Shown here piece by piece: positions 2,406-61,079 of a stretch of DNA of 64,000 nucleotides; within the stretch, counting starts at the first letter, position 1; the number at the start of each line of letters is the position of its first letter. Source of the stretch: Cristatella mucedo (taxonomy: Eukaryota > Bryozoa > Phylactolaemata > Cristatellidae). Made by a program: the position numbers and the translations under genes. The stretch spans positions 560,001 to 624,000 of the forward strand of contig WPIO01000082.1 of the NCBI GenBank assembly GCA_009760855.2, written 5' to 3'. The notes under the pieces are model-generated. The model was not told where the DNA came from, ran no database searches, and saw only the letters and a program-made list of their open reading frames with translations.

Positions 2406-2625
2406 CTGAGTGTCAGTGTGTAGTCGCCGTGTGTCATATTGGTGGACGCCATGCGGACAAGGAACGACCCGTCGGCACTGTCGCTCAGCCGCTCGTTCAC
2501 TTCCTCCTTCGAGATGTCACCCCAGTACCATTCGGCATCTTCGAGCCTCATCGTGCCGGGGTCGAGCTGAATCAGTGGCTGCGGTGACATGGGCGGCCGC
2601 GGCACGGGCCTTGGGGCCTGTATAC
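2406..2625 (-). CDS. PIK3R1: p85 exon: proline-rich linker and first half of the nSH2 domain
   Basis: The 220-nt exon encodes [14 protein letters not shown], a linker rich in PxxP motifs, and then the nSH2 start [33 protein letters not shown] and HGDYTLTL. It is nearly superimposable on the p85 nSH2 signature [18 protein letters not shown]...GTFLVRDAS...HGDYTLTLR. The phosphotyrosine-binding arginine of FLVR is present. A two-residue NM-T-H insertion-like variation occurs before HGDY. The exon stops at CTCAG|GTGGTG, so the second half of the SH2, the iSH2 coiled coil and the cSH2 lie left of position 1. This exon gives the firmest family assignment. Confidence 0.95.
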
Positions 2626-3339
2626 CTGCGATCGATATCAAGATGCTGTAGAAAAAAATGGATACAGCAAGCAAAGAAAAATATACCTAGGTAAAAAATC
2701 AGTCCCCGCCCAGTGCAGATAAATGCAGCCACGCCAGGTCAGCTGGCCGGCGGCTACTAAAACATCACGTGGCTGACAGAGCACCTGCAAAAGTGGCCGC
2801 TGCTGCTGTTAGGGCAACAATCGGCTAGACGGCATGCAGACCCGGCTTGCACGAGCATGAGCTGCCACTACAAGAGTGGCTTCACACGTTCGGTAAGTGC
2901 CCACGACAGAATTTTAAGTCACGATCTTTGAATCATTTGCTTGAATAGGCCGAGCAATCCCACCCCTAAAAGGCAGACCGTGTGGCCGCAACGTTTTCAG
3001 TCTCCCTTGACAAAATTGGACCGATTAATGCTTCCGTGAAGCCATGGCCACCTGCTGCAAGTGAAGAGTCACAATCTGCAGCCTCCTTTAGGAAGCTTTT
3101 CAACTGAGATGCTCGGGTAGAATGACTGAGGCCAGAAAAATAAAGAGATAATCCTATGACAAACATTCTTCAGACTTCATGGATGGTAAGCAATAGACTA
3201 GCTGTAGCTCCAGCTTTTTATGCTTCATTCGAGCTTTTACAAGAGCCGTTCAAGAGTTCATCGTTGGACCAATACTCAATAAGCCACGATCGGATTATGA
3301 CGAACTCACACTGATTATAGCATAGCCAAGCCTCAACAG
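2626..3339 (-). other. p85 intron, unique sequence
   Basis: Intron between the exons at 4741-4814 and 2406-2625. This part has no recognisable exon or repeat until the LINE at 3340. Confidence 0.5.
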
Positions 3340-4480
3340 GCAATATAATAATAATAATAATAATAATAATAACACACTTGACAAAGCGCCCTCAGAGAAC
3401 TCAATCTCTTTCGAGGTGCTTTCATTTACTGCAACAAAAATACGATCGAATGGTTAGTGCTCGATAAAAAACAAGAATAACATGGTTAGGGGTGGCATGC
3501 ACAGGATCAGCATGCAAGTATGGTTAGTGGCAGCATGCAGTGTCAGCACGCATTAGCACATCAAGGACGAATCACAGGGACCCACTAAATGCTGTCATAA
3601 ATAGGTGCATTTTTAGTTTCTTTTTAAATGTGGTCAAGTCAGGGGCTGTCGTGATGCAAGTCGGGATTGAGTTCCATGCTTTGAGAGCATACAAACTAAA
3701 TGCACGGTCTCCAAAGGATTTGAGGTTTGTACGAGGTATAGATAAAAAGTTCGATTCTTAAAAGCAGGTGGTACGATGCTTAGCCTGGTGAAGCAGTAGA
3801 TCTGATTGGTAGGCTGGAGCCAAAGAATGATGAGACCTAAAAGTGAGTGACAAAACCTTGAAGTCGATGCACTGCTTGACTGGTAGCCAGTGCAGGTCGG
3901 CGAGAAGTTGTGTGATGTGGCAGCTGCGACGCTCATGACAGACAAGCCTAGGTGCAGAGTTTTGCACCAACTGTAAGTGCCTGATTGCACATGCTGGTAG
4001 GCCAGCAAGCAGTGAGTTACAGAAGTCAAGACAGGATTTCACAAATGCATGGACTAATTTGACGTGGAACCCCTGTCTAAACGAGCCCTAACTTTAGCAA
4101 TGTTATGTAGCTGAAAGTAGGCAGACTTGACTGTGCAGCTGATGTGGTCGTCTAACAAGAGGTCACTTTGGAACATGACACCTAGATTTCGTGCAGATTC
4201 AACAGGAGATATGCTGGCATAGCCGATTTTGATAGTTAGCTTCTTCAATTTCTGAATCACACTTGGTTTGCCCATAACTAGAAAGTTAGTTTTATCATCA
4301 TTCAATTTATGAAAATTTGCTGCCATCCATGTGTGGATGTCATCAATACATGCAGCAAGGGCGTTAAGAGAATTCGAACTGCTGGAGAGCTGGGAGAGAT
4401 CAAAGTAAAGGTACAACTGAGTGTCATCCACATAGAAGTGAAAGCCTATTCCCCGTCTAAGCCTAGGGTTAAGGTGCTCG
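3340..4480 (-). mobile_element. LINE family 1, 3' part (RT to 3' end)
   Basis: On the plus strand it begins with (TAA)n, the element's 3' tail read backwards, then the conserved 3' hairpin region, and then RT C-terminal fragments. Reverse-strand peptides include FHFYVDDTQLYLYF (variant of FYADD), HKLNDDKTNFLVMGKPS and ARNLGVMFQSDLLLDDHIS. The frame is broken near 4040 and the copy is 5'-truncated. Confidence 0.9.
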
Positions 4481-4740
4481 CTCTTTATGACGCAGATTTC
4501 TCTTATATCGTCTGCATGCAATCTAGGTGTCCTGCTGCTATGTGACCTTGCACAACGTAATCACGTCGGCCCCATACTTAAGCCCAGAATCGTACTGCTC
4601 AGACTGCCTCCATTAGAACCGCTCTCTTCCCGTGGTGTGACTAACGACATAGGTTCAGAAGTTCGGGTAGCTGAGTCTGAAATTCCGGTCGCAGCGTCGC
4701 AACAACAGTAAAAAAAATGCACCCTTGAGAAATTGCCTAC

Positions 4741-4814
4741 CTGCTCCCCAGATTCCCAGCTGCAGTAGTCGCTCGAACACTGCCTGGTGGAACTGAGCAT
4801 TCTTGACAATATTA
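4741..4814 (-). CDS. PIK3R1: p85 exon: end of BH domain
   Basis: The 74-nt exon has acceptor attcttttgcttttcag and donor GTAGGC (1+72+1 nt). It encodes INIVKNAQFHQAVFERLLQL followed by GIWGAG. It is consistent with the last RhoGAP helix, which follows LLRP in the preceding exon. Its phases fit both neighbours exactly and it is the only exon needed to link them. Homology at this end of the domain is weak, so the call leans on splice sites and phase. Confidence 0.75.
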
Positions 4815-5629
4815 CTGAAAAGCAAAAGAATTTCCTTCAAGCATTACTTGGCGATCCAACGGTCAAGCAGCGGGATCGGCGGCAGGGTCAAATGAATCCC
4901 GGAGAGGAGCGCAGAGTTGGCTGCAGCTTTCGCTCTGCCGACCCGAGCGCAGGGCAGAGTGCATTTCTTCAAACCAGCAAGCGGAACAGCAAAAGAGTCC
5001 AAAAGGCGGCCACATTGCAGCCCCACGTCGGTACAAGAAAATACAAATAATTGGCTCACGTGTCGGCAGAGGCCTTGCCAAGCCTTGTCACGGTCCCGTG
5101 AGCTGCTCGTCCCACCCCCCCACCGACCCACCCCGACGTCATACTGGGAAGCCGTCGAGAGTGGCCTTCTAGCATTGCCTATCATCTCGACCGGCTATCG
5201 GTGGCACAGATCTGTCGAAGGTCTCGAGCTGAGAGTCTGAGCGTACTCTGCCACACTCGTACCCGCCCAGCTTTGCCGCGCTGGCAATCTGACTGACAAA
5301 GACGTTTTAAGAGACTCGGTAGAGTCACAGTTCACTTCCTAAACAGGCCGTACGAGCGGCAACACCAAGGGCCGGCAGGAAGAATTCGTGTTCAGGAAGC
5401 CAGCGTCGTGGGCGGTCGATCAGCGCTTGCCGACGAAGCGCTGACGTAGGCGTCGCACGTTCAGCTTCATCGGAAAAGCCGGTCTTGTTTTCACTGACAA
5501 GACGTGGGAACGTGAGTGTGCACACTCGGAAAACGTGCGTGCACGAAATCGACGGCTACTTTGACGGCGGTAGCGGCCCCATACAGCCCAAGCCGCGCCC
5601 TCTCGCCCAAGCTTGGCATAGGCGCTCAC
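4815..5629 (-). other. p85 intron, GC-richer unique sequence
   Basis: Intron between 5630-5828 and 4741-4814. Several overlapping open frames occur on both strands, but none shows domain similarity or fits the splice phases. Nothing else was recognised. Confidence 0.5.
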
Positions 5630-5828
5630 ATGATCCGCTCACGAGCCGGTCGCAGGATGATGTGGCAAAAGACGGTGCCCAGCCGCAGCGGTCGGTCAGG
5701 CTGCGGCTGCGAGGAGCAGATCCGGCAGAAGTGCGCCATCATCAGCATCAGAACCGAGTGGTGGTGCGGTGGCAGCTCGTTGACCAGGCGCGAGAGCTCG
5801 GCGCTGCTGCGCGCTCTGTCGTCCACAC
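5630..5828 (-). CDS. PIK3R1: p85 exon: C-terminal RhoGAP/BH segment
   Basis: The 199-nt exon has acceptor gcatgcttgtag and donor GTGAGC. It encodes ELSRLVNELPPHHHSVLMLM and then MAHFCRICSSQ, a linker, and LGTVFCHIILRPARERI. It aligns with the RhoGAP stretch LLxxLPxxHxxxLxxLxxHLxxV followed by NLAxVFGPxLLRP. The asparagine of the NLA motif, important for catalysis in active RhoGAPs, is not evident here (RLGTVF). Vertebrate p85 also diverges at this site. It enters with 2 nt (completing Arg) and leaves with 2 nt (completing Ile). Confidence 0.88.
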
Positions 5829-6519
5829 CTACAAGCATGCAGCTGCACGCACTAGCCAGACCCATGTCATTCGGTCCAAATCGACAGGAATCGGAACCGA
5901 GGTCGCACTGCTGGTGAACCTCATGCTCCAGAATAGTGCCAAATCAGCAAGGCAGCTTTGCAAACTCTCGCAGCTGCACAGCAGCTGCACGGCATGTGCG
6001 CAACGCCCGACTCACACCGGTAGTAAATGTATGCAGCACTGGCTTACCGTGGACATGCACCAGGCAAACTCCTCTTGCTTTCTCTTTCCATCCCACTATC
6101 CCGCTCCCTCTTCTCTCTGATCCACTCCTAGCACTAAGCAGGCATTCAGGCAGGAATAGCAAGCATTCGTACCACGGCAACCGTTCTATCATGCCCACTT
6201 TGACAAGTGACAGGGATGATTTCTACAAGGTACACATCGTTGCCTCAGCGATTCTTATTCTCACGATTTTTTACTCTCAAATCAGGATGTCCTTCTGGTC
6301 ACCTCATACATATACTTTCAACAGCAGATACCAAGCTGAAAGGTCTCTTAAGAAGCCTCATGGTCGAAATCCAATTTTCAAATGCACCCCATGCTGATAC
6401 AAGGCACCACTACTAACAATGATGCAGCAGCATATTCAAAGAAAACTAAGATTATGACAGCTTGCAGGTAAAAAACTGTGCTCATGAAGTCTATTGCTTC
6501 TAGATCCACCAAATACAAC

Positions 6520-7730
6520 CCCGTGGGCCGTCCTTAACATTTGCCTATGGAATGCACATTCCAAGTCCAACAAAACCCAAATCATACGCACAATCAATGA
6601 TTGTTGACAACGCCTCGACCAAATGTCTGACTATAACCAAAATCTTTCTTTCACACCCAGAGGTCAACTAAATCAGGTGGTAGAGGAGCAATTCATGCTA
6701 GTTCCTTGTTGATTTTAAGCAATTTGCAGTTCCCTCGAAGCAGTCTTTCAAATATATTGCATTGAGACACCCGCCCAACCGTAAGCTACCAAAAGTGGCA
6801 ATCTTCTATCACCCACTGAGTATAGAAACTTGCTTTATTTCAGATTTTTTCATATGTCACTTCTACCATATGTCCAGAAATCGCCCTTCCTAGTATCGGA
6901 TTATTTTAACACTCATTTTGATAACCCTGCTGGCTTATTTATATGCCACATTTTGCTCATTGGCTAATTCAATTTCTCTTGAAACTCACGTGCATGGCCC
7001 CACTATCATCAAAGGACACACTGTCGATGAGATATTCTCTTGCGATTGCATGCTTTCAACTTCTACTATTAACAAAGCCTGCAATCTGACAACACGGGAA
7101 TCTCTATTTCTCTGCAGTATGTATCTTGGTCGGCATCGAAAATTGCCTGCAAATCATAAAACCTAAAGAATGTTGATATATCGAAGCTGTCTGCAAAAAC
7201 ATCTTCATAAATATATGAATGCAATTTATTTGCATAGCGCCCTAAGAGAACTTAATCTCTTTCCTGTGCTTTACAAATGCCGCAGGGCTCAAGCCTACGA
7301 CCTAGATCGTTGAAGGTGAGCACCATACCCATGGGCCAAACCAGGGCGACTTCCTCAAAATTCTCCATGTAACCTACTGTCACTGATGGAACGTTTTAGC
7401 CTGATGCTTGCCGAAAGACATGGTTTACTACAGGTGTTTAACTAGTTGGGAATACTAAATGCAATCTTAAAAAAAACATACGGAAGATCAGATCGACTGG
7501 CCATCGATTGGCATGCGAGGACTATTCTAGGCCGCACCAATTCATCCTAGTTAAAGCTAAGTGTAGCTACTATAGGAGCATAGTGCAAATTACAGATGCA
7601 TAATTAAAAGAAATGTTGATGTCGACCATCACCACACTATCTCTCTAGCCACACCCAAGTCATCGCCATGCCTAGTGATCCTTGCAATCATCTAGCCAAT
7701 CGTTTTTCCTATTCCTTTGTAATGAAATGT
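6520..7730 (+). mobile_element. Degraded LINE family 1 on plus strand, endonuclease part
   Basis: Plus-strand frames contain LNICLWNAHSKSNKTQIIRT, typical of the start of an APE-type LINE endonuclease. Further on are DYFNTHFDNPA and VHGPTIIKGHTVDEIFS (GDFNIHVDDP and HVTGPTHxxGHTLDLVIS type). Multiple stops are present. A short reversed LINE 3' piece (about 7225-7290) is embedded. Sequence near 7670-7720 matches the pre-RT region of the 52.7-55.0 kb copy. Confidence 0.7.
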
Positions 7731-8280
7731 AATGCATCTCCGTCTGTAACTCCACAAAGACTTATTCGGGTGTTATGCAGGAGAGTTTTGTATATCGCAC
7801 TCACAGCCTAAGCGGCTTTCGGTACACATTCGGTAGCCAACAGACTTCATCTCACGCAAAAAAGAGAAAGTGGGAAGCATAGCAGGGTCAGGACAGCAGT
7901 TGAGGCAGTGAGTAGCATGGAAGTAGCATCTCAGGACCGTTGGAAAGGATGTGCCATAGTCGGCAGCATGAGAGTAGTTGTCGTTGCGTAAGAATTGTGG
8001 AAGCGAGTTCCACAGTCTAGGACCTGCAGAGTCAGGACAGCTAGGACAGCTGATGTCGCCAACGGTCTTTAAGCGGAGGAATGAAACAGCTAATCTATTG
8101 TCCATAAAGGACCTGAGGGCACGAGGAGGCTGGAACTCGTGCAGCAGCTCAGCTAGGTATAGAGAAGCCAAGCCGTTGTGGGCCTTGTGACTTGGCGTAT
8201 GAACTTTGTGAGTAAGATAGACAAAGGCAGAAAGTCCATCCCTAAAGTAACATCCTCCTTGAAGTATTCAACATATCTTT
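7731..8280 (-). mobile_element. LINE family 2, 3' end inserted in the plus-strand LINE
   Basis: It starts with the family 2 terminus (gtaatgcatctccgtctgtaac) and continues with the RT C-terminal end. Reverse-strand ORF 7773-8171 reads YLAELLHEFQPPRALRSFMD then RLKTVGD and GPRLWNSLPQFLRN, typical of CR1-group LINE C termini. It splits the plus-strand LINE 6520-9950. Confidence 0.85.
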
Positions 8281-9950
8281 CGGGCTCTAACTTGAATGTC
8301 CACCACAAAGCCGGCCCCTGATGCCTGTATCTCGAATTTTGAATCCCAGTCTAAGAAGACTGCTAGCCGTTTAGACCTCATGCCTACTGCTCTTTCTGGG
8401 ATGCCTAGACTGACTGGTACGACTTGCATAGCTAACAAGTACATTTGCCCTCAAATGCAGGTTCAGTACCACCATCTTTCAAAGAGGCTATTGTCAGGCT
8501 ACTCATTAAAAAGCCGACAACATACCAAGAGAACTTAATTAAAGCAACTTCCACCCAGTCCCCTCAATGCCGTTCATATCAAAGACAGTGTAACGAGTAC
8601 GGTCAGACCAGTTACAGACTTACATCAAAACTTCTAACCTAGAAATTTCTAGTCATGTTTTAGAGCTAATTACACCAAACAGTACTGCTGCTGGCATAAC
8701 TACCGACATTCACAGGAATGCTGACTTAGGTAGCCTTACTGCTAGATATGCTCGTATTGATATCATTGATCACCATGTCCTTCTTAAGAGCCTGCAGTCT
8801 CGCCTAGGACTGGTTTAGGTTACAAGTGAGATAATTCAGAAAGTAGATGCCAACGCCAACGGTCATATAGAGCCTTAAAAATTAAGGTGTGCCCCATGGA
8901 TCTGTTTTAGGATCACTCTTATTGACAATGTATACTCTTCCCCTTACCTATAAATTACCAGACTAAATTTAGGCTTTTTTAATGCAGATAACACACTGTA
9001 ACAGTGCTTCAATCCTTCTTTACCTTCCAGCATCTCAAACTCTCTCAGCTTGCAGCATGTATTGCTGACATTCGTGTTTAGATGACAGGAAACTTTCTCA
9101 AATTGAGTGATGATAAATAACTTACTAATTATGGGCAAACCTAAGGTCACTCAGAAATTGAATTGCCTAACCCTCTATAGTGGCTCGGCCAGCAAATCGT
9201 CTGCAGCCTCTGTATGGAATCTGGATGTCCTCTTCCAAAATGACTATTCACTAGAATGACTCGATGATCACATCAGCTCCACAGTCAAGCCTGTCTTCTT
9301 TTCACGAATGTAATATTGGAAAATTTGGGCTTGCTTAGATAAGGAGATCATAACCAAGCTGGTGCATGCATTTTTGACATCTGGCTAGGTTTCAGTAACT
9401 CACTTACTTATAGGTCTTCCTGTCTGCGCAATCCAATGCCTACAGTTGGTGCAAAATCTGGCAGTAAGCCTTGTCTGTCGTGCCACATGACATTAATCAA
9501 AACTGGCTCCCATTCAAGCAGCGCATCGAAATCAATCAATGGAAATAAAAAAAAATCACTCACCTTTAGGTCGCTCCATCTCTTGCTCCGGCCTATCTGT
9601 CTGAATTACTTCCAAAACCTGCTCTCTCCCCACCTGCTCTCCAGACTAGGGTCGTTACCTTGTGCATCTACCAAACTTCAAATCGCTCAGAGAACGTGCC
9701 CCCAGTTCCTATGCTTCCATAGCCTGGATATGACTACCGACTGATATCACATCATCTCCTGATTTGAAAGACATTCAAAAAAGCTAAAAACCTTCTCCGC
9801 ATGAGTTGCCCTTGGTGTGCCTAAGTGTTCTGAAATTGTGCATGCTATGACTAACCAATAGGCGTGCTTCTTTTTGCCTGGAAAAAGATTTGGTTCACTA
9901 CGGGTTTTCTATCAATTTTTAGTATCATTATCCATGTATGCCTGAACATT
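8281..9950 (+). mobile_element. Degraded LINE family 1 on plus strand, RT part and 3' region
   Basis: Fragments parallel the minus-strand copy at 53-55 kb: SQSKKTASRLDLMPT near 8340, a broken palm region near 8750-8830, and a C-terminal region near 9240-9730. There are many frameshifts and stops. It continues the copy interrupted at 7730. Confidence 0.8.
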
Positions 9951-10672
9951 TCTGTTCGTTTTTGACATGCCTCTGGCACTAAATTTCAAGTTGCTTCGGC
10001 GTGAACTAAGATGAATATCGTCATCTCCAGTTGTTTGATCTGCATTTACAGTATCGACTTTCCTCCTAAGTTGGCACCGACTTGACCCCAAATTCCTTCT
10101 GGTTTTAGCTTATTAAGTCACTAGATCTTGTGATGGAGCCAAATCGGCCGACTATTGAGCAGTAGGAGCTGCTCCTATTTAAAGCTTCCTTGTTGTACCA
10201 GGCAGCCAATAAAAACTGCAGAGGCGAGTTACACACGAACGCATGCACACACACACCCACCCGCCCGCTGGCCCGCTAGCCAAGCGGCAATGGCTACGCA
10301 TTGCTGACACTATAAGCCACGGATTGGCCGGCAGCCGAGCTGCTAAGAACAAAGACAGCACACTGAGTGTTACTGCTAGAAGCAGCACAGTGCAGTCTGA
10401 ATGTGCCACACTTTGACAATTATTGAAAAGACAAAGAGCCACCAATTCAATTAAGCCAAGATGTCAATAGGACTGTGTAAGCAGTGGCTGCATGTAGGTT
10501 TCCCTCCTCGATTCGGCCTCTACGGACATGTCAACAAATCCTGATCACTTATTGCTCGGTAACAGTTACAGTACGGCATAAGAGTTACAAGATGTATAGA
10601 CATGCAGAAGTACTGACAGCAACTGACCAAAGCCATAAAGCAGCCATGGCGACTGACGACGACAGTACTCAC
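9951..10672 (-). other. p85 intron, unique sequence
   Basis: Intron 3' of the exon at 10673-10804. No exon or repeat was recognised except a short CA/CC-rich stretch near 10245. Confidence 0.4.
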
Positions 10673-10804
10673 GGACAGCCTCGATGAAGTCCTCATACAA
10701 TTCTACAGGAATCAGCGGATTTGGAAGCTCACGCAAGTACTTCTTGATAATGCCGGCAATGGTGGGGCTGTCGTACTCGTTAAGATCGATCTCATATGGC
10801 GTTG
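10673..10804 (-). CDS. PIK3R1: p85 exon: RhoGAP/BH core (KKYLRELPNPLIP)
   Basis: The 132-nt exon has acceptor gtcttttcattgtag and consensus donor GTGAGT. It encodes YEIDLNEYDSPTIAGIIKK followed by YLRELPNPLIPVELYEDFI. This is the most conserved RhoGAP block (K-x-Y-L-R-E-L-P-x-P-L-I-P), including the lysine next to it. The wording LPNPxIP is the same as in vertebrate p85 BH domains. It enters with 2 nt and leaves with 1 nt. Confidence 0.93.
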
Positions 10805-11552
10805 CTACAATGAAAAGACATCAATATGGCATTTCTCCAGAATAAACTGCACAAACCAATTCTAGTTGCAGCAGCAGGCTGTTCATTCAGATCTATCTTA
10901 CCCGGCTTTGCCACAGTGACAAGACATAAAAAAGCATTTCTGTCTCAAACACCAATCTACTGCCTGGTAGGACAGTTTGGACCTGTATCGATCGTTATGT
11001 GAGCATGTTTACCCCAACCTATGGCAGTGCCACTGCCTAACTGTTGTCGCACGCCGGTACTAGGCTTGGCCCCTCACCCGACCTTAGCTAGAGAATCGCA
11101 GTGTAGCACTCCTGCTGCTAGGCGGGAGCCTAGACACTAGACAATCGGAGCAAAGCGTTCCTGAGTCCAGCTGACATTTCCTGCTAGAGGCAACGTCTGA
11201 CTTGAGTTAAAAAGACAGCATTGTCGAGTACTGTTTAGTACGAAAGTTTTCTAAAGTCGTTGCTATTCAGCAAGCCTACCTATTAAGCACACCTACGCAT
11301 ACAGCACACCTGTGCTACTAAGCAACGAAATGCATTCTACAGAACACGGTCTGGTTGTACTTGGACAAAGCATCAGTATATATCATATCATAAGTATATA
11401 TCATATGTCATAAGCATATACAGCATGCAAATAAGGAGAGCACGACTATGGTGTAGGCCGTGCAAATGAACCCTTAAAGCAACCATAAGCGCGATCTGAA
11501 CAGCCCAGACCAGACCAGACACTAGACAAACAGACAAGACAAGCAAGACAGA

Positions 11553-11553
<1 letters not shown>
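10805..11553 (-). other. p85 intron, unique sequence
   Basis: Nothing recognisable apart from a short duplicated catatca/tatatcat motif near 11380-11420. Confidence 0.4.

Positions 11554-11616
<63 letters not shown>
11554..11616. repeat. (TG)n microsatellite
   Basis: A pure TG run of about 62 bp abuts a LINE family 1 3' end, so it may have replaced or grown from the element's tail. Confidence 0.97.
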
Positions 11617-11620
<4 letters not shown>

Positions 11621-11720
11621 TTTATATAGCACCCTCAGAGAACTGAATCTCTTTCAAGGCATTTTACAGATGCTGTATAAAAAGCATTACCAAATGATTG
11701 GTAGTAACATCCGCAAGCCA
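11617..11720 (-). mobile_element. LINE family 1 3'-end fragment
   Basis: It contains the conserved 3' terminal block (tagcaccctcagagaactgaatctctttcaaggc read on the plus strand in two parts) and then decays. Confidence 0.75.
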
Positions 11721-12073
11721 ATGGTACAGCATAAGCAGACATATGCACATGAAGGACGAAACTGCTCCACCACAAATGCGTACGAACTGCAAGCACTGGC
11801 AAATGCTACCCGAGTGTGGCATCATAAATGGAGAGAATACACGTTCCGGTAATGCATACACAGACACTTGACCACCAGAGCAGTGGCTCATCAGCAGCAA
11901 AGACTGCCCACCAGTGTAACTCTAACTTTTAACCCACACTGGTTCTTCACTCATGGAGATTCTCTCTTGCATCTTCACAACGAGCCATACTTCCCCATTT
12001 ACAACCATGGCCCATTCTCTCGCCTGGGCATCTGCTGCCCAACTGCATGACTGTGTCTATGCACATTACTAGA

Positions 12074-12230
12074 TGATTCAACAGCCTCTTTTGCATAACG
12101 ATGGAAGAGCCTTTACGGCTATCACCATCGCTTGCAGCAGCAATAAAGGATCGCCCACCGTAAGATTCGAACACACGACCTCGGAACCGAGGTCGTGAAA
12201 GTAACGGCCATACCTAGTGTGCCATCACGG
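12074..12230 (-). mobile_element. tRNA-derived SINE, copy 1
   Basis: On the minus strand it reads ATGGCACACTAGGTATGGCC..., then the hairpin ACGACCTCGGTTCCGAGGTCGT, then TGTTCGAATCTTACGG (pol III B box like), GGGCGATCC, and a tail ending in GGCTGTTGAATCA. The same layout is seen in six other copies. Confidence 0.85.
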
Positions 12231-13357
12231 CTTACCGCATGCAACGAACGATCAAAGCACGTAGATGGTCATTCGGTAGCACCAAAGTGCACAATTTTTT
12301 TGCCGCATCAGCATGCCGATCACCCGGAGATTGATGCTCTGCTTAGTAGCCACCAAAAAGAGAGCCTTCTGTGCCAAGATGTGGATTGAGCTATCGAGTA
12401 CGATGTGAGAACTGCTTGCTCTCAAATTACGACGGTGCTCCAAAAAATGGAGAAATGCAAGCGCAACTTCAAGTTAAGAACAGCCTCAAAGAGTCTGTGA
12501 ACCGGTGGCTGTTTCAAGGAGACACCAGATGGCACATCAATGACCCCAGCACCAATCGAAGGCATGCACTGGTCTGGTGGCTGCTGAAAACCACTCTGTT
12601 GCTCTGTTGCATTGGCACCACAGACAACAGTTTCTTACATAGACTTCAAACTTCTTACAAACCTACACCTGCACTGCCTGCACTCCTGAATGTTCTGCCT
12701 ACCTGTTGGTGCTAGTAAATTCTCGGGCTGCCACAAATTCGTTCCAGACGTAGCCTTCGGTAAATCAGGCTTTTAGTTCGTAGGAATTTCTCAATGGGGC
12801 TAGCATGACAACACGAAATGCAAATGCACTGCTGCATATGCAGATTACAGACTAGGTTGGAAGAGGAAGTCAGAAGTAGTTGGGCTGCTGGTCACGAAAT
12901 TGTTCAACTGTCGAGACTAAAAAAGACGGCTGTGTGTGAGTGCAGCTGTCTCCCTCTCCCCCTCTCTTCTCCTCATAACCTTCTCACGGTGCTTGAATTG
13001 CTTTTTAATGATACAGTCGGGGCAAGCAGAGCAACCGAGCAGGCCAGGCACTTAGCTGAGAGGCAGGTGCTGTGGCTGCCCCACCTTCCTTACCACTAGG
13101 CTGCTACTACTGCACCTGCTACCACACATAGGGAAACCCACTCACCTGGAACAAATTACCCACGTAAGACTCAGTCTTCTGGGGGGGCGGCAGGCATTCC
13201 GAAATAGTGCACCAGATTATTTGGGCTGGGCAGCAGCAATAGCTTGTCACGGGCAAAAGAGGGCGGGGTCGAACGTCCGAACAAAAGGCACCAGATCGCC
13301 ATGCAGCGGCAGCCAAGATGGCAGCTCTGAGCACGGCGCAGCGACAAGCTAGCACAC
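12231..13357 (-). other. p85 intron, unique sequence
   Basis: Intron between the exons at 13358-13438 and 10673-10804. No exon was recognised and only short unsupported frames occur. Confidence 0.4.
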
Positions 13358-13438
13358 CGGTGACATCAAAAGCTTTCTTCAGTCTGTTGACCGCCTCGTT
13401 GGACGGCGTTGTCCTGTAAGCGTCGATCAGGTCGTACT
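13358..13438 (-). CDS. PIK3R1: p85 exon: RhoGAP/BH segment carrying the arginine-finger position
   Basis: The 81-nt exon has acceptor ctctgctttgtag and donor GTGTGC. It encodes YDLIDAYRTTPSNEAVNRL followed by KKAFDVT. The arginine in DAYR lies where RhoGAP domains carry the catalytic finger (GLYRVSG type) and human p85 has LYRTQ. It joins in phase to the next exon, whose first full residues are TPYEIDLNEYDS. The donor is weaker than the others (G|GTGTGC) but gives the only phase that preserves the domain. Confidence 0.85.
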
Positions 13439-13647
13439 CTACAAAGCAGAGGACGGCACGACGTAGGCAGCTGAACGATTGGGGCTGGGGGACGCTTCGA
13501 AAGCGAGCGATAACAGCACGGCAGGCGCGGGCAGTCGCAGCAGACCAGCGAGGACGATCGCGGGCCAGCCGGGCTGGAGTGGGGCACAGCCGGCCCCCCC
13601 CCCCGAGGCTTGGGGCGCAGCTGGGCAGCGCTTGGCGCCCGTCTCAC

Positions 13648-13761
13648 TGCTTTCCCTGATGCGCCTCTCCAAAACCTCCGTGCAGACGACAAGCACGGCC
13701 GGAGCTCGACTGTCAACCATTAGAGAGAACTGCTTGCCGAGCTCCTCTCCGAACATCGAAT
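13648..13761 (-). CDS. PIK3R1: p85 exon: start of the RhoGAP/BH domain
   Basis: The 114-nt exon enters with 2 nt after a cttcag acceptor and leaves 1 nt at donor GTGAGA. It encodes DSMFGEELGKQFSLMVDSRA, then PAVLVVCTEVLERRIRES. This is the usual opening of a RhoGAP domain: F-G-x-x-L, then x-P-x-V-V-x-x-C-x-x-x-L-E-x-R. The next exon continues KYDLIDAYRTT in frame. A much longer open frame runs through this exon and both flanking introns, but the homology stops at the splice sites given here. Confidence 0.82.
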
Positions 13762-14298
13762 CTGAAGCACACACACACAGCCTGCGTGCCACTAACGAAG
13801 CCGTAAATGAAGCACCGGAATGCTCTTGCACGTCGATGGCAACAATTAAAACGTCCGGCCATTGGCCAGGCACCGGAAACAGGCTAGAAACTACCACGGC
13901 CAGACACTCCTCCCTCACTTCCCGCACCGACGCCCGATCGACAGGAATCGGTGGCAGGACATGGCTTGCGAGCTCGATCTGCCCCTGCCCTGCTGCTGCT
14001 GCAGCTTCCAGCACGTCGGTCCATGGCCCGGAGCTCTCAGCAAAGCTCGGGAAGGGCGGTCGTCGCGAGACGGACAATGACATTTCACCAGTCGTCGTCT
14101 AACCCGAGGAGTGCCTGTCCCCAGCATGCAAAAGCAGTGGGCGGTTCGACGGTGCTTGCAAACCGGGCCGACTGGTGCGCCAGTCGAGGCGATGAAGGCC
14201 GCCCACAGAAGGCGAGGCGGTGCTGCGAAAGTGGTCAGCGACGCACACGCAGCCACCTCAGGCAGCACATTCGGCCGTTTGCATGTGCCACCACTCAC

Positions 14299-14397
14299 CG
14301 GAAACGAAGCTCGGCCTGCGCAAGTGCGGCAGCCGCTCAATGCTACACGACGGCAGCTTGCCAACCTTGCACTGGCGGTGAACACACAGGCCACAGA
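14299..14397 (-). CDS. PIK3R1: p85 exon: second half of the C1 zinc finger
   Basis: The 99-nt exon (2+96+1 nt) has a strong acceptor (cctcctttgcag) and consensus donor GTGAGT. Joined to the preceding exon it reads QCTVCGLCVHRQCKVGKLPSC, completing H-x12-C-x2-C-x13-C-x2-C-x4-H-x2-C-x7-C with all eight zinc ligands present. A short linker, ERLPHLRRPSFVS, leads into the RhoGAP domain in the next exon. A C1 domain directly before a RhoGAP domain is the arrangement of chimaerins. In p85 this position is occupied in vertebrates by a proline-rich linker. Confidence 0.88.
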
Positions 14398-14521
14398 CTG
14401 CAAAGGAGGAGTGCGAGTGCAAAGACTCATGCTGCAAAAACACAGGAGACACAGCCAACGTCGAACCCCGCTGAGGCAGCGAGTCGAGGCGGCAACGTTG
14501 CTGCTGCTGCTGCTGCTGCTT

Positions 14522-14523
<2 letters not shown>

Positions 14524-14594
<71 letters not shown>
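14524..14594. repeat. (GA)n microsatellite in p85 intron
   Basis: A pure GA run of about 70 bp lies in the intron that splits the C1 domain. The neighbouring gctgct run (14500-14520) makes Gln/Leu stretches in shadow frames. Confidence 0.97.
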
Positions 14595-14596
<2 letters not shown>

Positions 14597-14732
14597 GAGT
14601 GGGAGTGAGAGAGAGTGAGAGCTGTCGCCGGTAGAGTGGCTGTGGCTAAGGCAAGCAGGCATGACAAGCAAGGCCAGGCTAGGACGCTGCCGGGAGTGGA
14701 GAAATGAATGGGGGGAGGACGATGGCTCTGAC

Positions 14733-14871
14733 CGGTGCACTGCAGCCCCTGGTGAAGCAGGCCATAGAGTGGCTTCTCGCACACGTGGCACTGCTGCAGC
14801 GACGAGAACGAGTGCTCCTTCAGGCGGTGTTGTGATGCCTTGCTGTTCCTCGGCTCGCCCGTGCCTGACCT
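14733..14871 (-). CDS. PIK3R1: p85 exon: first half of C1 (DAG/phorbol-ester-type) zinc finger
   Basis: The 139-nt exon starts in phase 0 after gcattgcag and leaves 1 nt at donor GTCAGA. After a linker it encodes HRLKEHSFSSLQQCHVC and then EKPLYGLLHQGLQC. Spacing is canonical for C1: H-x12-C-x2-C-x13-C. The motif GLLHQGLQC matches typical C1 domains (LWGLxxQGxxC). The second half is in 14299-14397. C1 domains bind diacylglycerol at membranes in PKC and chimaerins, and other members have lost this ability. The Q-G pair in HQG that supports the ligand loops is present here. The intron after this exon contains the (GA)n tract at 14524-14594. Confidence 0.88.
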
Positions 14872-15274
14872 CTGCAATGCATCGAAGACGCAATAGTCAG
14901 CAGCCTGCCGGCCGGCTCGAAGATGCGGAAGCCACTGGGTGCAGCGTGCAACTCGGCGATCGATTGCAGCAGAGGTGCCGACCACTGCTACCATCGGTAC
15001 GAGCAACAAGCCGGCCTGTAGAAGTATAGAAGTGCTTATAGTAGTCATCAGCCGTGCCTATAAAAATGCCTACAAAACCCAGCGATGTCTGAGGCCTGCC
15101 TCGTTATGTGGTGCTGCTACTGCCGCAGTGCCTTTTATCACTGTGCAAGACGGTCAGCCGTTAAGCAGCTAGGCCAACGCTCCCACACAGCGCTGCCCAA
15201 GTGCTTCCCACAGAGCCTGCTGCTATTCCACACAGTGAGACTGCCTCGCACACAAGCACTCGCGTAAAACTGAC

Positions 15275-15355
15275 CTGGCCAGAATGCCGACAGCACAGTT
15301 CATCGACACAAGCCAAAATCGCCTTCTGATGGAAGTCATCTTTTATACCAAGCTC
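15275..15355 (-). CDS. PIK3R1: p85 exon: last part of the SAM domain
   Basis: The 27-codon exon is in phase 0 at both ends, with donor GTCAGT and an acceptor ending ccgatgaag. It encodes ELGIKDDFHQKAILACVDEL and then CCRHSGQ. This completes the SAM domain started in 18396-18530: the ELGI-x-x-x-x-H-x-x-x-I-L-x-x-I/V helix 5 signature is intact. It leads in frame into the linker before the C1 domain. The acceptor pyrimidine tract is only moderate, so the exact 5' edge could shift by a few bases, but the homology is clear. Confidence 0.83.
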
Positions 15356-15754
15356 CTTCATCGGAATAAAGACATGAAAGTCATGTTACGGTCGACCCGG
15401 CAATACGTGTCATGCTAAGAGGCCACCTTAACTAAACAATGCAGAAGTAAATTACGGCAGCTTTTGCATAGGGCTGTGAGACTGAAACAAGGAATGGCCC
15501 TGATAGGCCTCAACAGAAACAACAGAGCAATGCACGCGTGTGCCACGCTGCCGATCTGGCGCCGACGGAATTCTATAGCAAACGCCGGGAGAAGCTAAAT
15601 GAGCTGACAGTACAAGCAGCTCGTGCAAAAGGTGTTGCTTGGGTGCGAAGCATGCTCCCCTAAAAAAGGCTATCAAATGATGCAGCACAGGTAAAAACTA
15701 AACTTGGACAGAGTTGCGGTACAACCCTTTGTTCAATAACCGATAAAAAATTAT
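15356..15754 (-). other. p85 intron, unique sequence
   Basis: No exon recognised before the LINE starting near 15755. Confidence 0.4.
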
Positions 15755-17290
15755 ATCAATAACACATACATATAGCATCCTAAGAGAGCGTAATCTCTTT
15801 CTAGGCACTTTATGTATGCTGTAAAGAAAGCATGATCAAATGATCCGTGGTAATATGTACAATGTCAACATGCCTGACATGGTTAGAGGTGACATTCCCA
15901 AGTGTCAACACGTGAAACATGGTTAGTGGTAGCATGCCCAGTGTTAGCACGAAGAAGCACACAACGGACGAAACACAAGAACACTAAATGCTGTGATAAA
16001 CAAGTGCATTTTAAGCTTCTTTTTAAATGTCGTCAAGTCAGGGGATGTCGTGACATCAATCGGGAGTAACTTCTATGCTTTGGCAGCATACAAACTGGCA
16101 GCACGGTCTCCAAAAGATTTGTGATTGGTTCATGGCATAGCTAACCGATGTGAGTCACAAGAGCAGGTGTGCAATGACTAGCCTGGTGGGTGATAGGTAG
16201 GATGAAGCCAGAGAATGAAGCGACCTAAAAGAGAGTGACAGGACCTTTAAGTCGATGCGCTGCTTGTCTGGGAGCAAGTGCAAGTTGGTGAGAAGTGGTG
16301 TGATGTGGTAACTGTAACACTCAGGAAAGACAAGCCTAGCTGCAGAGTTTTGCACTAACTGTAATCGCATGATTGCAAAGACCGGTAGACCAGCATTCAC
16401 TGACGAATGCAGAGACAGCATGTCACACACAAATGCATGGCCCAATTTGGATCTAGTGTCCCTGTCTAAGCAAGACTGAATTTTTGCCATGCTATATAGC
16501 TGAAAGTATGCAGACTTGACTGTGAAGCTGATGTAGTCATCTAGTGAAGGAATGGGAGGGCTTGGAGGGATTAAAGCAAAGGTACAACTGAGTGTCATCT
16601 GCATAGAAGTGAAAGCCTAGATTGTGCTTGGCAATAACATCGGCAAGAAGGGGAGTATAATTTATGAAAAGAATTTTACCAAGCACAGAGCCCCAAGTAC
16701 CCTGTACTTCAGTGGTTCTTCGAATGACCTTTCTCTGTTGACATCAATACCCAGTAGTCTCCCACTGAGATAGGATCTGAACGATTGCAGTGTAGTGCCA
16801 GTGATTCCCAGACGAGACGAGAAGAAGCTCGAGAAGGACTTTCACGATCTATTGTATCAAACGCTGCCGAATAATCATCAAACCAAGCAGAGAGACTTTA
16901 CCTAAGTCTGCATACCTGAGACGGTCGTTAAACACCCTAAGCAATGTTGACTCCATTGAGTGACTAGCTATAAAACCAGACTGGAACTTACTGGCACTGT
17001 TTGAAGTTTCAATATAAGAGTTCAGCTGGTCTGCCACAACTTGCCGAAGTGTCTCTGATAGGAACTGTAGAAGGGAGACTGGGCAGAAGCAGTTCAAGTT
17101 CTCTTGGTCAAGTGCTGCTTTCTTAATTACTGGCCTAACAACAGCTATTTTGAAAGGTGCAGGGACATGATCTGAGGCTAAGAACATATTTATTGTGTTA
17201 TTTATGCATGGCAGTAGCAGGTCTACATATCGTAAAAGTAGGACGGTGGGAATAGGGTCTAGAGGACTAGTAGTCTTCTTTGACTGGGTG
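15755..17290 (-). mobile_element. LINE family 1, 3' half, interrupted by family 2
   Basis: Reverse-strand frames 16155-16604 ([33 protein letters not shown]) and 16849-17376 (SKKTTSPLDPIPTVLLLRY, ASKFQSGFIASHS) are RT fragments of family 1. Frames are broken. The element is continuous with 17733-17790 once the inserted family 2 piece is removed. Confidence 0.88.
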
Positions 17291-17720
17291 ATGTAATGTA
17301 TCTCTGTCTGTAACTCCACACAGCCATAAAGACTTATGTAGGTGTTACGCAGGAGAGTTTTGTATAGCTCACTCACAGCCTAAGTGGCTTTTGGCACACG
17401 TTCGGTAGCCAACATACTTCAGCTCATGCAACAAAGAGAAAGTGGGAAGCATAGCAGAGTCAGGAGAGCAGTTGAGACAGTGAGTAGCATGGAAGTAGTA
17501 GCTCAGGACCGCTGAAAAGGATGAGCCATAGTCGGCAGCAGGAGAGTAGTTGTCGTTGCGTAAGAATTGTGGAAGCGAGTTCCGACCTACAGAGCTAAAG
17601 CTTCTGTCGCCAACGGTCTTTAAGCGGAGGAATGGAACAGCTAATGTATTGTCAATACAGAACCTGAGGGCAAGAAGAGGCTGAAACTGGTGCAGCAGTT
17701 CAGCTAGGTACGAAGGAGAG
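17291..17720 (-). mobile_element. LINE family 2 3' fragment nested in LINE family 1
   Basis: This piece has the family 2 terminus at its left and is 5'-truncated at its right. The reverse frame reads SYLAELLHQFQPLLALRF, RLKTVGDRSF and NSLPQFLRNDNYS. It is flanked by tgactgggtgatg (17281) and tgactggtgatg (17721), a near-perfect target-site duplication. Confidence 0.88.
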
Positions 17721-17784
17721 TGACTGGTGATGAATTTCAGGATGAGGTCACTCGTAGCCTCCTTGAAAGTAGACATTGAGGTGC

Positions 17785-17790
<6 letters not shown>
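17721..17790 (-). mobile_element. LINE family 1, resumed after nested insertion
   Basis: Sequence from the duplicated target site onward matches 54437-54495 of the longest family 1 copy (the pre-RT peptide MSTFK-x-x-TSDL). Confidence 0.8.

Positions 17791-17868
<78 letters not shown>
17791..17868. repeat. (GA)n microsatellite
   Basis: A pure GA run of about 78 bp truncates the family 1 LINE. Confidence 0.97.
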
Positions 17869-18395
17869 AGACCTGCAGTAACAGTAAAGAGCTAAATATA
17901 CGCACGTGATAACCTAGTCAACCCAGGGAAGAAACGCCCATAGCATCCGCTGATCGACCATCGTGCCATCACAGTTCCCCTTCTCTTTTAGAAAGAGAAC
18001 AGGCGGCTCCAAGTTCTTCGGTTTCAAAGACAATCTGGCAGCCATGTTTAAGACTGACCATAGTGGTCTACCGACACGTTAAGCACCTCCACCCTAACAT
18101 ACCGAGCACCCGTCGAGCGACAAACAACAGAAGAGCAAGCAATGCACGAAGGTCATTGCTTGACCAAAGCCAGTGGTCAAATCAATCCCAGCCCATTGAT
18201 CTACAATCCCGCTTGATACTGGGCAGAAGACTCACGACAGATCCCTCGAATTGCACACTCGAATCCCACCAGCCCTACCCTGCCCAAAATCAGGGCGCCA
18301 CATCACCCGGGACGGTAGAGAAGATGGCAAGACGGCAGAGGAGGTGGCGGCAAATCAAGTGAAGCAGTCACATGGTGACGGCTTCCTTTACATAC

Positions 18396-18530
18396 CCTCA
18401 GCTTTTCTTCCGAAAACGCAGCCAGTTGCTCTCCTGTGGTGCATCGCTTTTTGAAAGGCTCTATGTATCGATACAGGTTAACCGTTGCCAGCCACTCTAG
18501 AACATTGACGACCGTCCACGAGCTCAGTGG
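18396..18530 (-). CDS. PIK3R1: p85 exon: first part of a SAM domain
   Basis: The 45-codon exon is in phase 0 at both ends, with a strong acceptor (gttttgtttttgtttcag) and donor GTATGT. It encodes PLSSWTVVNVLEWLATVNL followed by YRYIEPFKKR and ends EEKLR. This is the classic SAM start: W-T-V-x-x-V-x-x-W-L, then L-x-x-Y, then the loop with E-x-L-x-x-x-x-E-E-x-L. It continues directly into the next exon as LR-ELGIKDD. SAM domains mediate homo- or hetero-oligomerisation and sometimes lipid or RNA binding. Vertebrate p85 alpha, beta and p55 gamma have no SAM domain, so its presence here is unusual. It is supported by phase and homology continuity with its neighbours. Confidence 0.85.
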
Positions 18531-18759: not shown

Positions 18760-18896
18760 GACTGGCGAAGGAAACGTCTCCATGCTTTCGGCCTCAGCCA
18801 GAGCGGCATTAGGAGCTGTACCGTGAGGTCCCGGACAAACTCTACCCGTAGAATCTTCTGCGTTAACGCACTCGTTGTGAAAGCACACCAGACAGA
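18760..18896 (-). CDS. PIK3R1: p85 exon with a C1-like zinc-finger C-terminal half
   Basis: This 137-nt exon has an acceptor ttgcag and a consensus donor GTGAGT. It enters with 2 nt and leaves in phase 0, exactly what the SAM exon downstream requires. It begins VCLVCFHNECVN, which fits the C1 pattern C-x4-H-x2-C. It resembles the start of the genuine C1 second-half exon at 14299-14397 (VCGLCVHRQCKV), including the same splice phase. The last cysteine comes ten residues later rather than the canonical seven. The rest is a low-complexity acidic/Pro linker ending METFPSPV. The first half of such a C1 domain would need another exon between 19 and 34 kb that was not found. If there is none, the exon joins the SH3 exon directly in frame and only a cysteine cluster is left. 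Confidence 0.6.
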
Positions 18897-20732: not shown

Positions 20733-22470
20733 TGTTGCTCTCTTTTTCTCGAGCCCACTTGCTCACCAGACTTTGACCAAATGTAGAGCAGCCCGAAAGC
20801 GCCAGCGGCGAGAGCATCGATGGGCAGTCATGATGCCAACCGAGCATCGGACAACTCGAACGTCACCATTTTATTTGCGGCACGACGACGGCATCACTTG
20901 CCGTGCACCTCTGTAATCCTCCACCCCTGCCCCTCAACCACAGTGCCCTGCACCTCTACCGAAGCACAAAAACTCGCATAGTCCAAGGGAACGATGGGCA
21001 AAAAAGCATCGGGCAAGATTCGCAATAGAACTACCAGATTCGGTAGCAGTTCAGGTAAGTGAGCTCCTGCAAATCGACATTGACAACCATTCGTCCAGAC
21101 ATCGCTGCCAGCAGAAGGTCGGCTTGCACTACGGTTTAGTGGCACTTACTTTGGATAGCTAACGAAAATGGGGGCTCGCACGCGATCGAGCACGATCGTT
21201 GAATGATAACAAAGGCCACCAAGCAGCAGACAGAAACAACAAAACGCCAATGTTCGTCAAGCAGCTCGTGGCTTGACAAAGCCCTTAACAAAGAGATCGT
21301 AGGCCTAGTAAATAAAGCACAAGATAGCTCTCATGCACGGGCAACGAACGAGACAGCACTAGTACGGCATAGTACTTCTGGCGGCTGATTTCCTCTCAGA
21401 CCTGTTCAAGTGAATGTGGCAAGCTCAGGCAAAGCAAGGCATAGTGTAACTTGACATCTGCGAAAGCAACTGCATGTCTCACCTTGGCACCGAACACCGA
21501 CATCGCCTTGTCCCCATATGTAATCTGAACCTAGCAGGAAGAAAAACCAGGAATCTGTGAATCAGCAGCCGTGTCTTGGGGGGGGGGTAGAATCAAAGTG
21601 CAGCGATCTTTGTGATTAACTTGACGGACTTCATGATAGACATAAGGGCAAGGGTAAAGTGTTTGACACTAACTGCTACGCAAATAGCCTCCGCAGGGAA
21701 ATTACAAGCAAGCTTACAGATACGTGGACTGACCAAACAGCACCCATGTGATCAAACGGAAAATATGAGGTAATTGTCCATACGAGCTCAGATATCCATC
21801 AAGGTTGTGCTGAGTCAAGCAGCTCTCCCTTGACAAAACTGTAGTTGACATAGGCAGCCTGAACCACAATTGGTTCTAGGAAGGTGGGAAGCAACAACAG
21901 AATGGTCAGGGGAATGTTCGACACCGTAGTACTAGCAGTAACAAGTTCATAGATAGGGCACTGCACATCAGAACATAATCGGCAGCTGCCTTCTCCCTGC
22001 TGGCAAAAATTCGCCAAGCATAAATTGAATTGAGACCCTGCAACTTCATCGGGTGCCTGGCCACATAGCAGTCGTGTACATTCAATTAGCGATTACATGT
22101 CAATTAGCGATCATGTCGAGTGGTATGAGCTGCACGACAAGTGGGTGTGCTTCTGATTTTTTTGATGCATTTCTGTACACAGAAGATCATCGTATTCGAT
22201 GCCACTCGTGGTGCTAAACTCATATACCAGTGACTCCATAGATTATGATAAAGTTGGAGAGTCAGCTTCATAGCAATGCAACCCGACGAAATACCCGCGC
22301 CTCAATGCAAACTCATTCTTTCTGCCTACAGTAATACAGCGGTGCCAATTAAACTCCGTTATGGCGTGCATCATTATCAAGCAAATCAAATCTGGGCTCA
22401 GTCACATAATATCTTGGTGATACATCGCGAAAATGAGCTTCCACAAATATATGGCAGAATGTTTAACAAT
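20733..22470 (-). other. Presumed p85 intron, mostly unique
   Basis: An open reverse frame with a good acceptor (tgtcgatttgcag) at about 20905-21063 encodes HLPELLPNLVVLLRILPDAF and onward, but it matches no known domain and its exit phase does not fit the 18760-18896 exon. Reverse frame 21799-22017 (hydrophobic core) is also unrecognised. Nothing is firmly annotated. Confidence 0.35.
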
Positions 22471-27565: not shown

Positions 27566-28245
27566 ATGCACTTACACGATGCACACATCAGCGGCCTCAC
27601 AAAATAGACCCTCTTCAGTTGGTGATCGTGACGTGGCGGAGCTTTCGATGCGGCTGGAACAAAAACACCATCAGCTGTCATAATCTGATTGCAGCACCGA
27701 TTGCAGTGGCGCAGCGACAAGCGGATGCAAAGCCCCAAGAACAAACGAAGCCGGCCACGACAGCGCAGCACAAAGTGGTGGCTCTGCCTTCTCCATGCTG
27801 CCTTGTGCAGTGGCCGAGTAGGGGTAGCACAAACCAGCATGGACAGCACATGGATCGGCAGCACAGGCAGCCAGCGTTTTTCCCTAGCGCCCACACATCC
27901 CCCACCCGGCAGCCACTATCGGCAACCACTGAACAGCAATCAACTACATCACAAATAGCATTGTTGCAGATATGCTACGGATGCAACCACGGTAAGGTTA
28001 TCTTTCTGGCAGTAATTCGAAAGCAGTTACATGTAATATATCGAATCGAACAGAAATCGGCCCCAGAAAGAGCACAACAATAGCGGCCCCACACACGACA
28101 CAGCTTAGACGACTGTGGCTAAAGGGATTCTGATGGTTTTTCACACGGACAGTATGATACCATTGATGAGGCTTGGTGACATCTCCGGAGGGGGAGGAGT
28201 GGAGGGTCTCAGACGTTTCTGCAGCTGCTTCCTGGCTGGCATACC
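27566..28245. other. Unassigned stretch
   Basis: Overlapping frames on both strands, none recognised. It may be the 5' part of the transposase-like remnant. Confidence 0.3.
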
Positions 28246-34309: not shown

Positions 34310-34660
34310 CGATCGATTCATTGGTCGAGTAAATGTTGGATTCTGCTTGATGGACTTTCGGCTCCTCCTCAACTGGCACAATTTCAACATACGTGCCTGG
34401 GAACTCTCCCGTCTGGCCAGTTCTAAGGTTTTTTCCGGTCAGCCAGACCTTCGGTGACTTGTAGTCATCCAATGCCTCCAACTGGCTCCATTCGACTTCA
34501 ATTAGGTCTCCAACAGCTATGGCAATATCTCCAGGTTGAACTGGAGCATGATCATGTATGACTTTGTACATTACGACCAATGCCATGATATCTGCTGCTT
34601 GCTGACTGCCTTCCAGTGCTGCATTGGTCGAGACCTCATTGGTATCAAAGCACACACGGG
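34310..34660 (-). CDS. PIK3R1: p85 exon: N-terminal SH3 domain
   Basis: The reverse strand is open for 117 codons between an acceptor (pyrimidine-rich tract ending tgtttttag) and a donor GTAAGC, entering with 2 nt and leaving with 1 nt of a codon. The SH3 fold is recognisable: a start like ALYDY (LVVMYKVIHDH), an acidic RT-loop region, the conserved Trp in KVWLTGKN, and a C-terminal GEFPGTYVEIV that matches the p85 SH3 ending (GDFPGTYVEYI type). A likely start codon lies at 34584-34586 (MALVVMYK), which would put the SH3 at the extreme N terminus as in other p85 proteins. The 24 codons before it are open and could be coding or 5' UTR. SH3 domains bind PxxP motifs; the p85 SH3 is thought to help autoregulation. 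A SINE lies just upstream at 34756-34906. Confidence 0.85.
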
Positions 34661-43249: not shown

Positions 43250-43805
43250 TAATAATAATAATAATAATGCACTTGATAAAGCGCCCTCAGAGAACTCAAT
43301 CTTTTCCAAGGCGCTTTACATTTTCTGCAAAGGGAAACGCGATTGAATCGTGAGTAATATCATGCTTGATAAACAACCTGAACAACGTAGTTAGGGGTAA
43401 CATGCACAGGGTCAGCATGCAAATGTGGTTAGTGGCAGCATGCACAGTGTCAGCACGCAAAAGTACATGAAGGACGAATCACAGCGACCCACTAAATGCT
43501 GTCCGAAATAGATGTGTTTTTAGGTTCTTTTCAAATGTGGTCAAGTCAGGGGATGTTCTGACGCAAGTCGGGAGGGAGTTCCAGGCTTTGGGAGCATACA
43601 AACTAAATGTACGGTCTCCAAAGGATTTGAGGTTTGTACGAGTTAGTAGTAAACTGTTGGATTCCAAAAAGCGGGTGGTACGATGCTTAGCCTGGTAGGG
43701 GAGTAGATCTGATAGATATGCTGGAGCCAAAGAATGAAGGGACCTAAAAGTGAGCGACAAAACTTTGAAGTTGCTTGACTGGTAGCCAGTGCAGTTCGGC
43801 GAGAT
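43250..43805 (-). mobile_element. LINE family 1 3' end
   Basis: (TAA)n at 43250-43267, the conserved terminus, 3' UTR and RT C-terminal peptide (AKHRTTRFLESNSLLLTRTN, LYAPKAWNSLPT). It ends abruptly at about 43803. Confidence 0.92.
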
Positions 43806-60825: not shown

Positions 60826-61079
60826 AGAGACAATACAGAAGCTGAGGGGGTCTCTATGCCTAGCCAGACAATGGGGGTCATGAAGAATCGTGGTGGGACG
60901 ACGTCACACTAAATGCATACATACCAGCAGCATATGTATTTGTTTTGGGGCTGTCAATAAATACTTTCCCGTGTTTTGCATAACTTTAGTATGCCTGGCA
61001 CTGAAGAAAACCCTCTCATTACCCGAATGAATTTACAGCCACAGCCTCGGCAGCCATACTTCGAGGATGTTTTGCTCCT

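Follow-up and report, generated by a model that had tools for sequence, protein, structure and literature searches.

The window considered here is a 64,000-base stretch of DNA from the bryozoan Cristatella mucedo (assembly GCA_009760855.2, 572 Mb; contig WPIO01000082.1, bases 560001-624000, with window position 1 at contig base 560001), which was extended by 30 kb to the left, giving 94 kb examined in all. It carries one gene on the minus strand for a p85-type regulatory subunit of phosphoinositide 3-kinase (PI3K). The joined exons, 20 in number, comprise 2856 coding bases and 951 residues, and the domain order is SH3 - C1a - SAM - C1b - RhoGAP - nSH2 - iSH2 - cSH2. A sequence-only reading of the window had proposed a single p85 orthologue with SAM and C1 domains ahead of its RhoGAP/BH domain, and the 951-codon frame with its iSH2, two SH2, RhoGAP and SH3 domains bears this out.

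The sequence features by which a p85 is recognized are present in the window protein: an iSH2 domain, two flanking SH2 domains with the FLVR-type arginine, and an N-terminal SH3 followed by RhoGAP/BH, the last two marking it as a p85 and not a p55, p50 or p60 form. Pfam iSH2 (PF16454) scores 110.8 bits against a cut-off of 31.5 at residues 673-825, and Pfam SH2 (107.2 bits, above cut-off) matches two stretches flanking iSH2, with FLVR and FLIR present. RhoGAP (89.3 bits), C1_1 (53.7 bits, in two stretches with E<=1 each) and SAM_1 (41.8 bits, residues 184-245, profile positions 2-63 of 64) also exceed their curated cut-offs. The SH3 domain is below the Pfam cut-off (SH3_9, 21.6 versus 30), yet it matches the SH3 domain of human p85alpha (i-Evalue 3.7e-4). 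All eight zinc ligands are found in each C1 domain. Those of C1b (HX12CX2CX13CX2CX4HX2CX7C) fit the C1 pattern HX12CX2CX13-14CX2CX4HX2CX7C exactly, in agreement with the canonical spacing described earlier, while C1a (HX12CX2CX13CX2CX4HX2CX10C) has 10 rather than 7 residues ahead of the last cysteine.

Exon structure of the gene

The p85 exons were initially located with a human p85-alpha sequence and were refined by tblastn with 120 relatives (cluster match threshold E<=0.5) and by inspection of exon borders. These are the best 120 of 1591 proteins found, and counts out of 120 below refer to them. All 19 introns, from 209 to 6656 bases long, have GT-AG borders, and the phases fit at all 19 junctions. 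The coordinates that the sequence-only reading gave for the SAM exons (5 and 6), the C1b exons (7 and 8) and the nSH2 exon (14, ending at 2406) were exact, as were the shared strand and splice phase that it reported for these and RhoGAP. Its list of parts was correct as far as it went; not included were the second C1 domain (C1a) and the 5' start of the gene, which is the SH3 exon at 34586, upstream of the exons noted earlier. The 3' end lies beyond the left edge of the window, with the stop at contig base 551827. The exons are as follows, in window positions unless stated.

34310-34586, minus strand: exon 1, start codon and SH3 (residues 1-92); donor GTAAGC, phase 1; 34% identity to the human p85alpha SH3
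27576-27653, minus strand: exon 2, first part of C1a; 54/120 relatives match in cluster 27859-27482
21483-21530, minus strand: exon 3, middle of C1a, DYIWG segment, 48 bases; 76/120 relatives match in cluster 21597-21403; phase 1-1
18760-18896, minus strand: exon 4, closing part of C1a with the final zinc ligands, then a linker; weak alone
18396-18530, minus strand: exon 5, first part of SAM; 119/120 relatives match
15275-15355, minus strand: exon 6, second part of SAM; 115/120 relatives match; phase 0-0
14733-14871, minus strand: exon 7, first part of C1b; 120/120 relatives match in cluster; Pfam C1_1 at residues 267-309
14299-14397, minus strand: exon 8, second part of C1b; 80/120 relatives match in cluster
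13648-13761, minus strand: exon 9, start of RhoGAP/BH
13358-13438, minus strand: exon 10, RhoGAP with the arginine-finger position (YR, residues 377-378), aligned to chimaerin YRVSG; phase 1-1
10673-10804, minus strand: exon 11, RhoGAP (KKYLRELPNP); 119/120 relatives match
5630-5828, minus strand: exon 12, RhoGAP (VFCHIILRP); 119/120 relatives match
4741-4814, minus strand: exon 13, end of RhoGAP; phase 2-1
2406-2625, minus strand: exon 14, a linker rich in proline, then the first half of nSH2 (FLVR); 63% identity to human p85alpha; Pfam SH2 match at contig 562396-562530
Contig 558201-551827, left of the window: exons 15-20, rest of nSH2, iSH2, cSH2 and stop

An alignment of 123 relatives was made from the 120 plus P0122-P0124, and SAM-to-C1b segments from all 123 match the 94 kb at E<1e-4, with 377 of 377 matches on the minus strand. 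None of the 123 segments reached E<1e-4 in control DNA consisting of the 94 kb shuffled within 50-base blocks and a reversed copy (best E 0.017). The segments match six places; the one at 33.6 kb lies outside the exons and probably corresponds to a match, interrupted by a stop, that a single tblastn query gave.

Fragments of reverse transcriptase (PF00078) occur on the minus strand at 53520-53885 (E 1.5e-9) and, within an intron of the p85 gene, at 4057-4560 (E 0.003, below cut-off); both are likely remnants of long interspersed nuclear elements. Open reading frames at 16852-17379, 16158-16616, 43482-43874 and 60345-60908 resemble further retroelement pieces by eye, with no Pfam match at E<=0.01.

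Breadth and origin of the domain layout

The sequence-only reading took the architecture to be unusual and suggested a domain survey of p85 orthologues across invertebrates, cnidarians and sponges; among the bilaterian relatives listed, SAM-C1-RhoGAP-SH2 proved to be widespread. The search used 722 residues of the joined exons, scored over residues 1-460. Domains iSH2, SH2, RhoGAP, C1 and SAM occur together in 117 of the best 120 relatives, the exceptions being P0050 and P0118 without a C1 call and P0071 without RhoGAP. The taxa represented are molluscs, an annelid, a brachiopod, nemerteans, chelicerates, myriapods, a crustacean, insects, echinoderms, hemichordates, and amphioxus, and later searches added the bryozoan Watersipora (P0124) and the fly Condylostylus longicornis (P0230). 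In the alignment, columns are at least 70% filled for SAM in 122 of the 123 relatives, for C1b in 123, for RhoGAP in 122, for C1a in 102, and for SH3 in 75. All eight domains reach this level in 69/123, and SH3 and C1a are most often missing, perhaps in part due to short isoforms. For several relatives the source contig is 3.6-5.6 kb long and codes for 850-1050 residues with no introns; these contigs are probably transcripts. A profile search with ten deuterostome proteins, in which the 7992 candidates with the most words in common were scored, gave, beyond the first 15 rows, RhoGAP proteins without iSH2, and a search with the C1-SAM-C1 stretch of amphioxus scored 305 candidates and returned 4.

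The layout with SAM and C1 is already known, since a report on the shrimp Penaeus vannamei states that its PI3Kp85alpha has two C1 domains and a SAM not found in human p85 (PMC12817958, J Virol 2025), and since PI3K regulatory subunit alpha is the name under which NCBI lists many of the relatives. The gene is therefore an ordinary invertebrate p85. In the shrimp report the SAM is called N-terminal and the extra domains are speculated to help viral protein binding (PMC12817958). In the passages found of another paper, SAM is ascribed to SHIP2 and C1 to PKC, and neither to p85 (PMC8797975). The excerpts of the literature on p85 domains and evolution that were found contain no test of what the SAM and C1 parts do for PI3K.

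The tree of 52 rows (50 relatives picked from the 120, the window protein, and human p85-alpha), built by a quick method with a midpoint root, recovers three groups, each with SH-aLRT (approximate likelihood-ratio test) support of 100: arthropods, deuterostomes including human, and spiralians including the window protein. The gene tree tracks the animal tree, the window protein grouping with Spiralia and the human protein with amphioxus and Ambulacraria; the comparison covers the bilaterian taxa listed above, with human p85-alpha as the sole vertebrate p85. Because the layout is common to protostomes and invertebrate deuterostomes, SH3-C1a-SAM-C1b-RhoGAP-nSH2-iSH2-cSH2 is probably ancestral for bilaterians. 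The match to human p85alpha (PDB 7myn chain B) totals 439 bits over residues 5-70 and 340-945, and residues 71-339 of the window protein, the 269 between the SH3 and RhoGAP matches, face 41 human residues. The human sequence fills 2% of the C1a columns, 0% of the SAM columns, and 30% of the C1b columns, the C1b letters being linker without cysteine. Since human p85-alpha groups with deuterostomes, since 269 residues stand against 41, and since parallel gains in the same order do not explain this, the simplest reading is that a single loss would have removed the C1-SAM-C1 block on the human line, with SH3 and a diverged RhoGAP fold kept, the latter as BH. Drosophila p60 consists of SH2-iSH2-SH2 and is not known to have SH3, C1, SAM, or RhoGAP. 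The p85 of Condylostylus longicornis retains SAM, C1, and RhoGAP, so their loss from p85 would have taken place within the flies.

Among solved structures, the C1b-RhoGAP stretch is closest to the chimaerins, with 88.7 bits for beta2-chimaerin (1xa6) and 88.3 for N-chimaerin (3cxl), to which the C1 domain contributes part. The RhoGAP domain matches N-chimaerin 2osa (56.2 bits), 1f7c (58.1 bits), and the human p85 BH domain 1pbw (37 bits); 1f7c, whose entry reads RHOGAP PROTEIN, is presumably an oligophrenin/GRAF-like RhoGAP. The beta2-chimaerin match and the shared order in protostomes and invertebrate deuterostomes agree with one option in the sequence-only reading, that an ancestral C1-RhoGAP unit was kept here and lost towards vertebrates.

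Role of the N-terminal half and rival explanations

Work on PKC points to two groove residues, Pro11 and Gln27, as needed by C1 domains for binding diacylglycerol (DAG). The window protein has P11 and V27 in C1a and L11 and Q27 in C1b, so that neither domain has the pair typical of DAG/phorbol-binding C1 domains. Among the 123 relatives, C1b has Pro11 in none and Gln27, G23, and G28 in all. In C1a, 98 relatives have a residue at position 11, which is Pro in 95; at position 27 the alignment shows a residue in 95 relatives, which is Gln in 2. A regular expression gave a different result for C1a residue 27 (19 Q of 94); the alignment count is preferred because the expression covered the first 260 residues and can catch an early C1b, such as that of Lingula at position 158. 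As neither C1 has both groove residues, the DAG sensing put forward in the sequence-only reading is doubtful and a docking module would be likelier. The C1 domains of most diacylglycerol kinases are stated not to bind DAG (PMC5067486).

A catalytic RhoGAP domain has an arginine finger and a GP-N/T-L motif. The position of the chimaerin GPT reads CHI in the window protein, with Cys in 116/123 and His in 118/123 relatives, while the arginine-finger position has Arg in 61, His in 25, Ser in 16, and Cys in 10 of the 123. For the SAM domain the nearest solved structures are liprin-beta-1 and CNK2 (33-34 bits), and these leave the choice between self- and partner-binding undecided.

By analogy with the p85 family, the C-terminal half would use iSH2 to bind p110 and keep it in check until binding of phosphotyrosine motifs by the SH2 domains sets it free. 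The N-terminal half is predicted, at roughly even odds, to be a docking module rather than a DAG switch or an efficient GTPase-activating protein (GAP), because the groove residues are incomplete, the arginine finger is variable, and GPT reads CHI. The RhoGAP fold would serve as a contact for Rho-family GTPases, the two C1 domains as zinc-stabilized adaptors or weak membrane contacts, and the SAM as a surface for binding itself or a partner, by which PI3K would be concentrated at membranes. In the bilaterian p85 proteins sampled, the C1 pair splits the two groove residues in a complementary manner. If this split has been selected for, then the ancestral PI3K regulatory subunit may have carried a conserved platform of C1-SAM-C1-pseudoRhoGAP whose task was docking and not DAG sensing, and which vertebrates gave up; this suggestion is tentative, and if it is true, models of PI3K control derived from vertebrates portray a reduced version of the protein.

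The rival to a docking role is a DAG-responsive regulator, in which DAG bound by C1b (or C1a) would recruit PI3K to the membrane and free an active Rac-GAP from inhibition, in the manner of chimaerin. Retention of every zinc ligand, the invariant Q27, G23, and G28 of C1b, the chimaerin-like C1b-RhoGAP pair, and an arginine finger in the window protein are all compatible with such a switch, but it is unlikely given a C1b that never has P11, a C1a that almost never has Q27, a finger that is Arg in about half of the relatives, and the CHI sequence. Two further explanations concern the gene rather than its role. The C1/SAM exons might represent a separate chimaerin-like or SAM gene ahead of a short p85, with the fusion an annotation artefact, and the introns of up to 6.7 kb, the retroelement fragments within the gene, and the use of genomic DNA alone would allow for this. 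It is nevertheless very improbable: in 117/120 relatives a single predicted protein contains all the domains, and some of these proteins derive from transcript-like short contigs; blastp aligns residues 1-948 with the top relative (P0002), and the phases match at 19/19 junctions, and on these grounds a separate upstream gene was rejected. More improbable still is an independent gain of the SAM/C1 module in this lineage, for which no supporting point was found; protostomes, echinoderms, hemichordates, and amphioxus all show the C1a-SAM-C1b-RhoGAP order, and the C1b zinc ligands and Q27 are kept almost without exception. Independent gain was rejected on the shared order across bilaterians and the tree.

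Taken as a whole, the preferred reading is that of a p85 orthologue from the Spiralia, a class IA PI3K regulatory subunit whose layout is shared by protostomes and invertebrate deuterostomes, whose N-terminal half may serve for docking, and whose C1-SAM-C1 block was lost on the human line; the probability of this reading is put at about 0.85. Several points weigh against it. The gene model was built from Cristatella mucedo genomic DNA and homologues alone, and the splice sites were picked with homologues at hand, so the agreement of phases is no independent evidence. Taken singly, exons 4, 9, 10, and 13 find a match in just 3, 29, 4, and 14 of the 120 relatives. The query contained SAM and C1, which biases the list to proteins bearing them, and the 117/120 is accordingly a measure of breadth and not of the fraction of all p85. 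The branch of the window protein is long (1.04) and its place within Spiralia unsure, and the arginine finger that it retains (R378) would allow GAP activity.

Comparison with known systems

The window protein has the same domains in the same order as the proteins that NCBI names PI3K regulatory subunit alpha in invertebrates such as Octopus, Limulus, Apis, and Branchiostoma, with 41-50% identity to invertebrate relatives in nine pairwise alignments. No feature distinguishing it from them was found save its long branch, and as an ordinary invertebrate form the gene itself is of little consequence. Two C1 domains and a SAM are likewise reported for the PI3Kp85alpha of Penaeus vannamei, although that is an arthropod protein (PMC12817958).

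The likeness to chimaerins (1xa6 and 3cxl) is in the succession of C1 and RhoGAP, with 88-89 bits over the pair. The chimaerins keep P11 in C1 and the GPT motif, whereas C1b and RhoGAP of the window protein do not. Chimaerins have the order SH2-C1-RhoGAP and are not known to have SAM, iSH2, or a second SH2; the window protein is set apart from them by SH2 domains located after RhoGAP and by the presence of iSH2. With Drosophila p60 it has only SH2-iSH2-SH2 in common, and SH3, C1, SAM, and RhoGAP are known, of the two, from the window protein only. Human p85alpha (PIK3R1) shares SH3, RhoGAP/BH, nSH2, iSH2, and cSH2, but is without C1, SAM, and C1. SAM and C1 precede RhoGAP/BH in relatives from every phylum listed, and human p85 appears to be a derived, shortened form.

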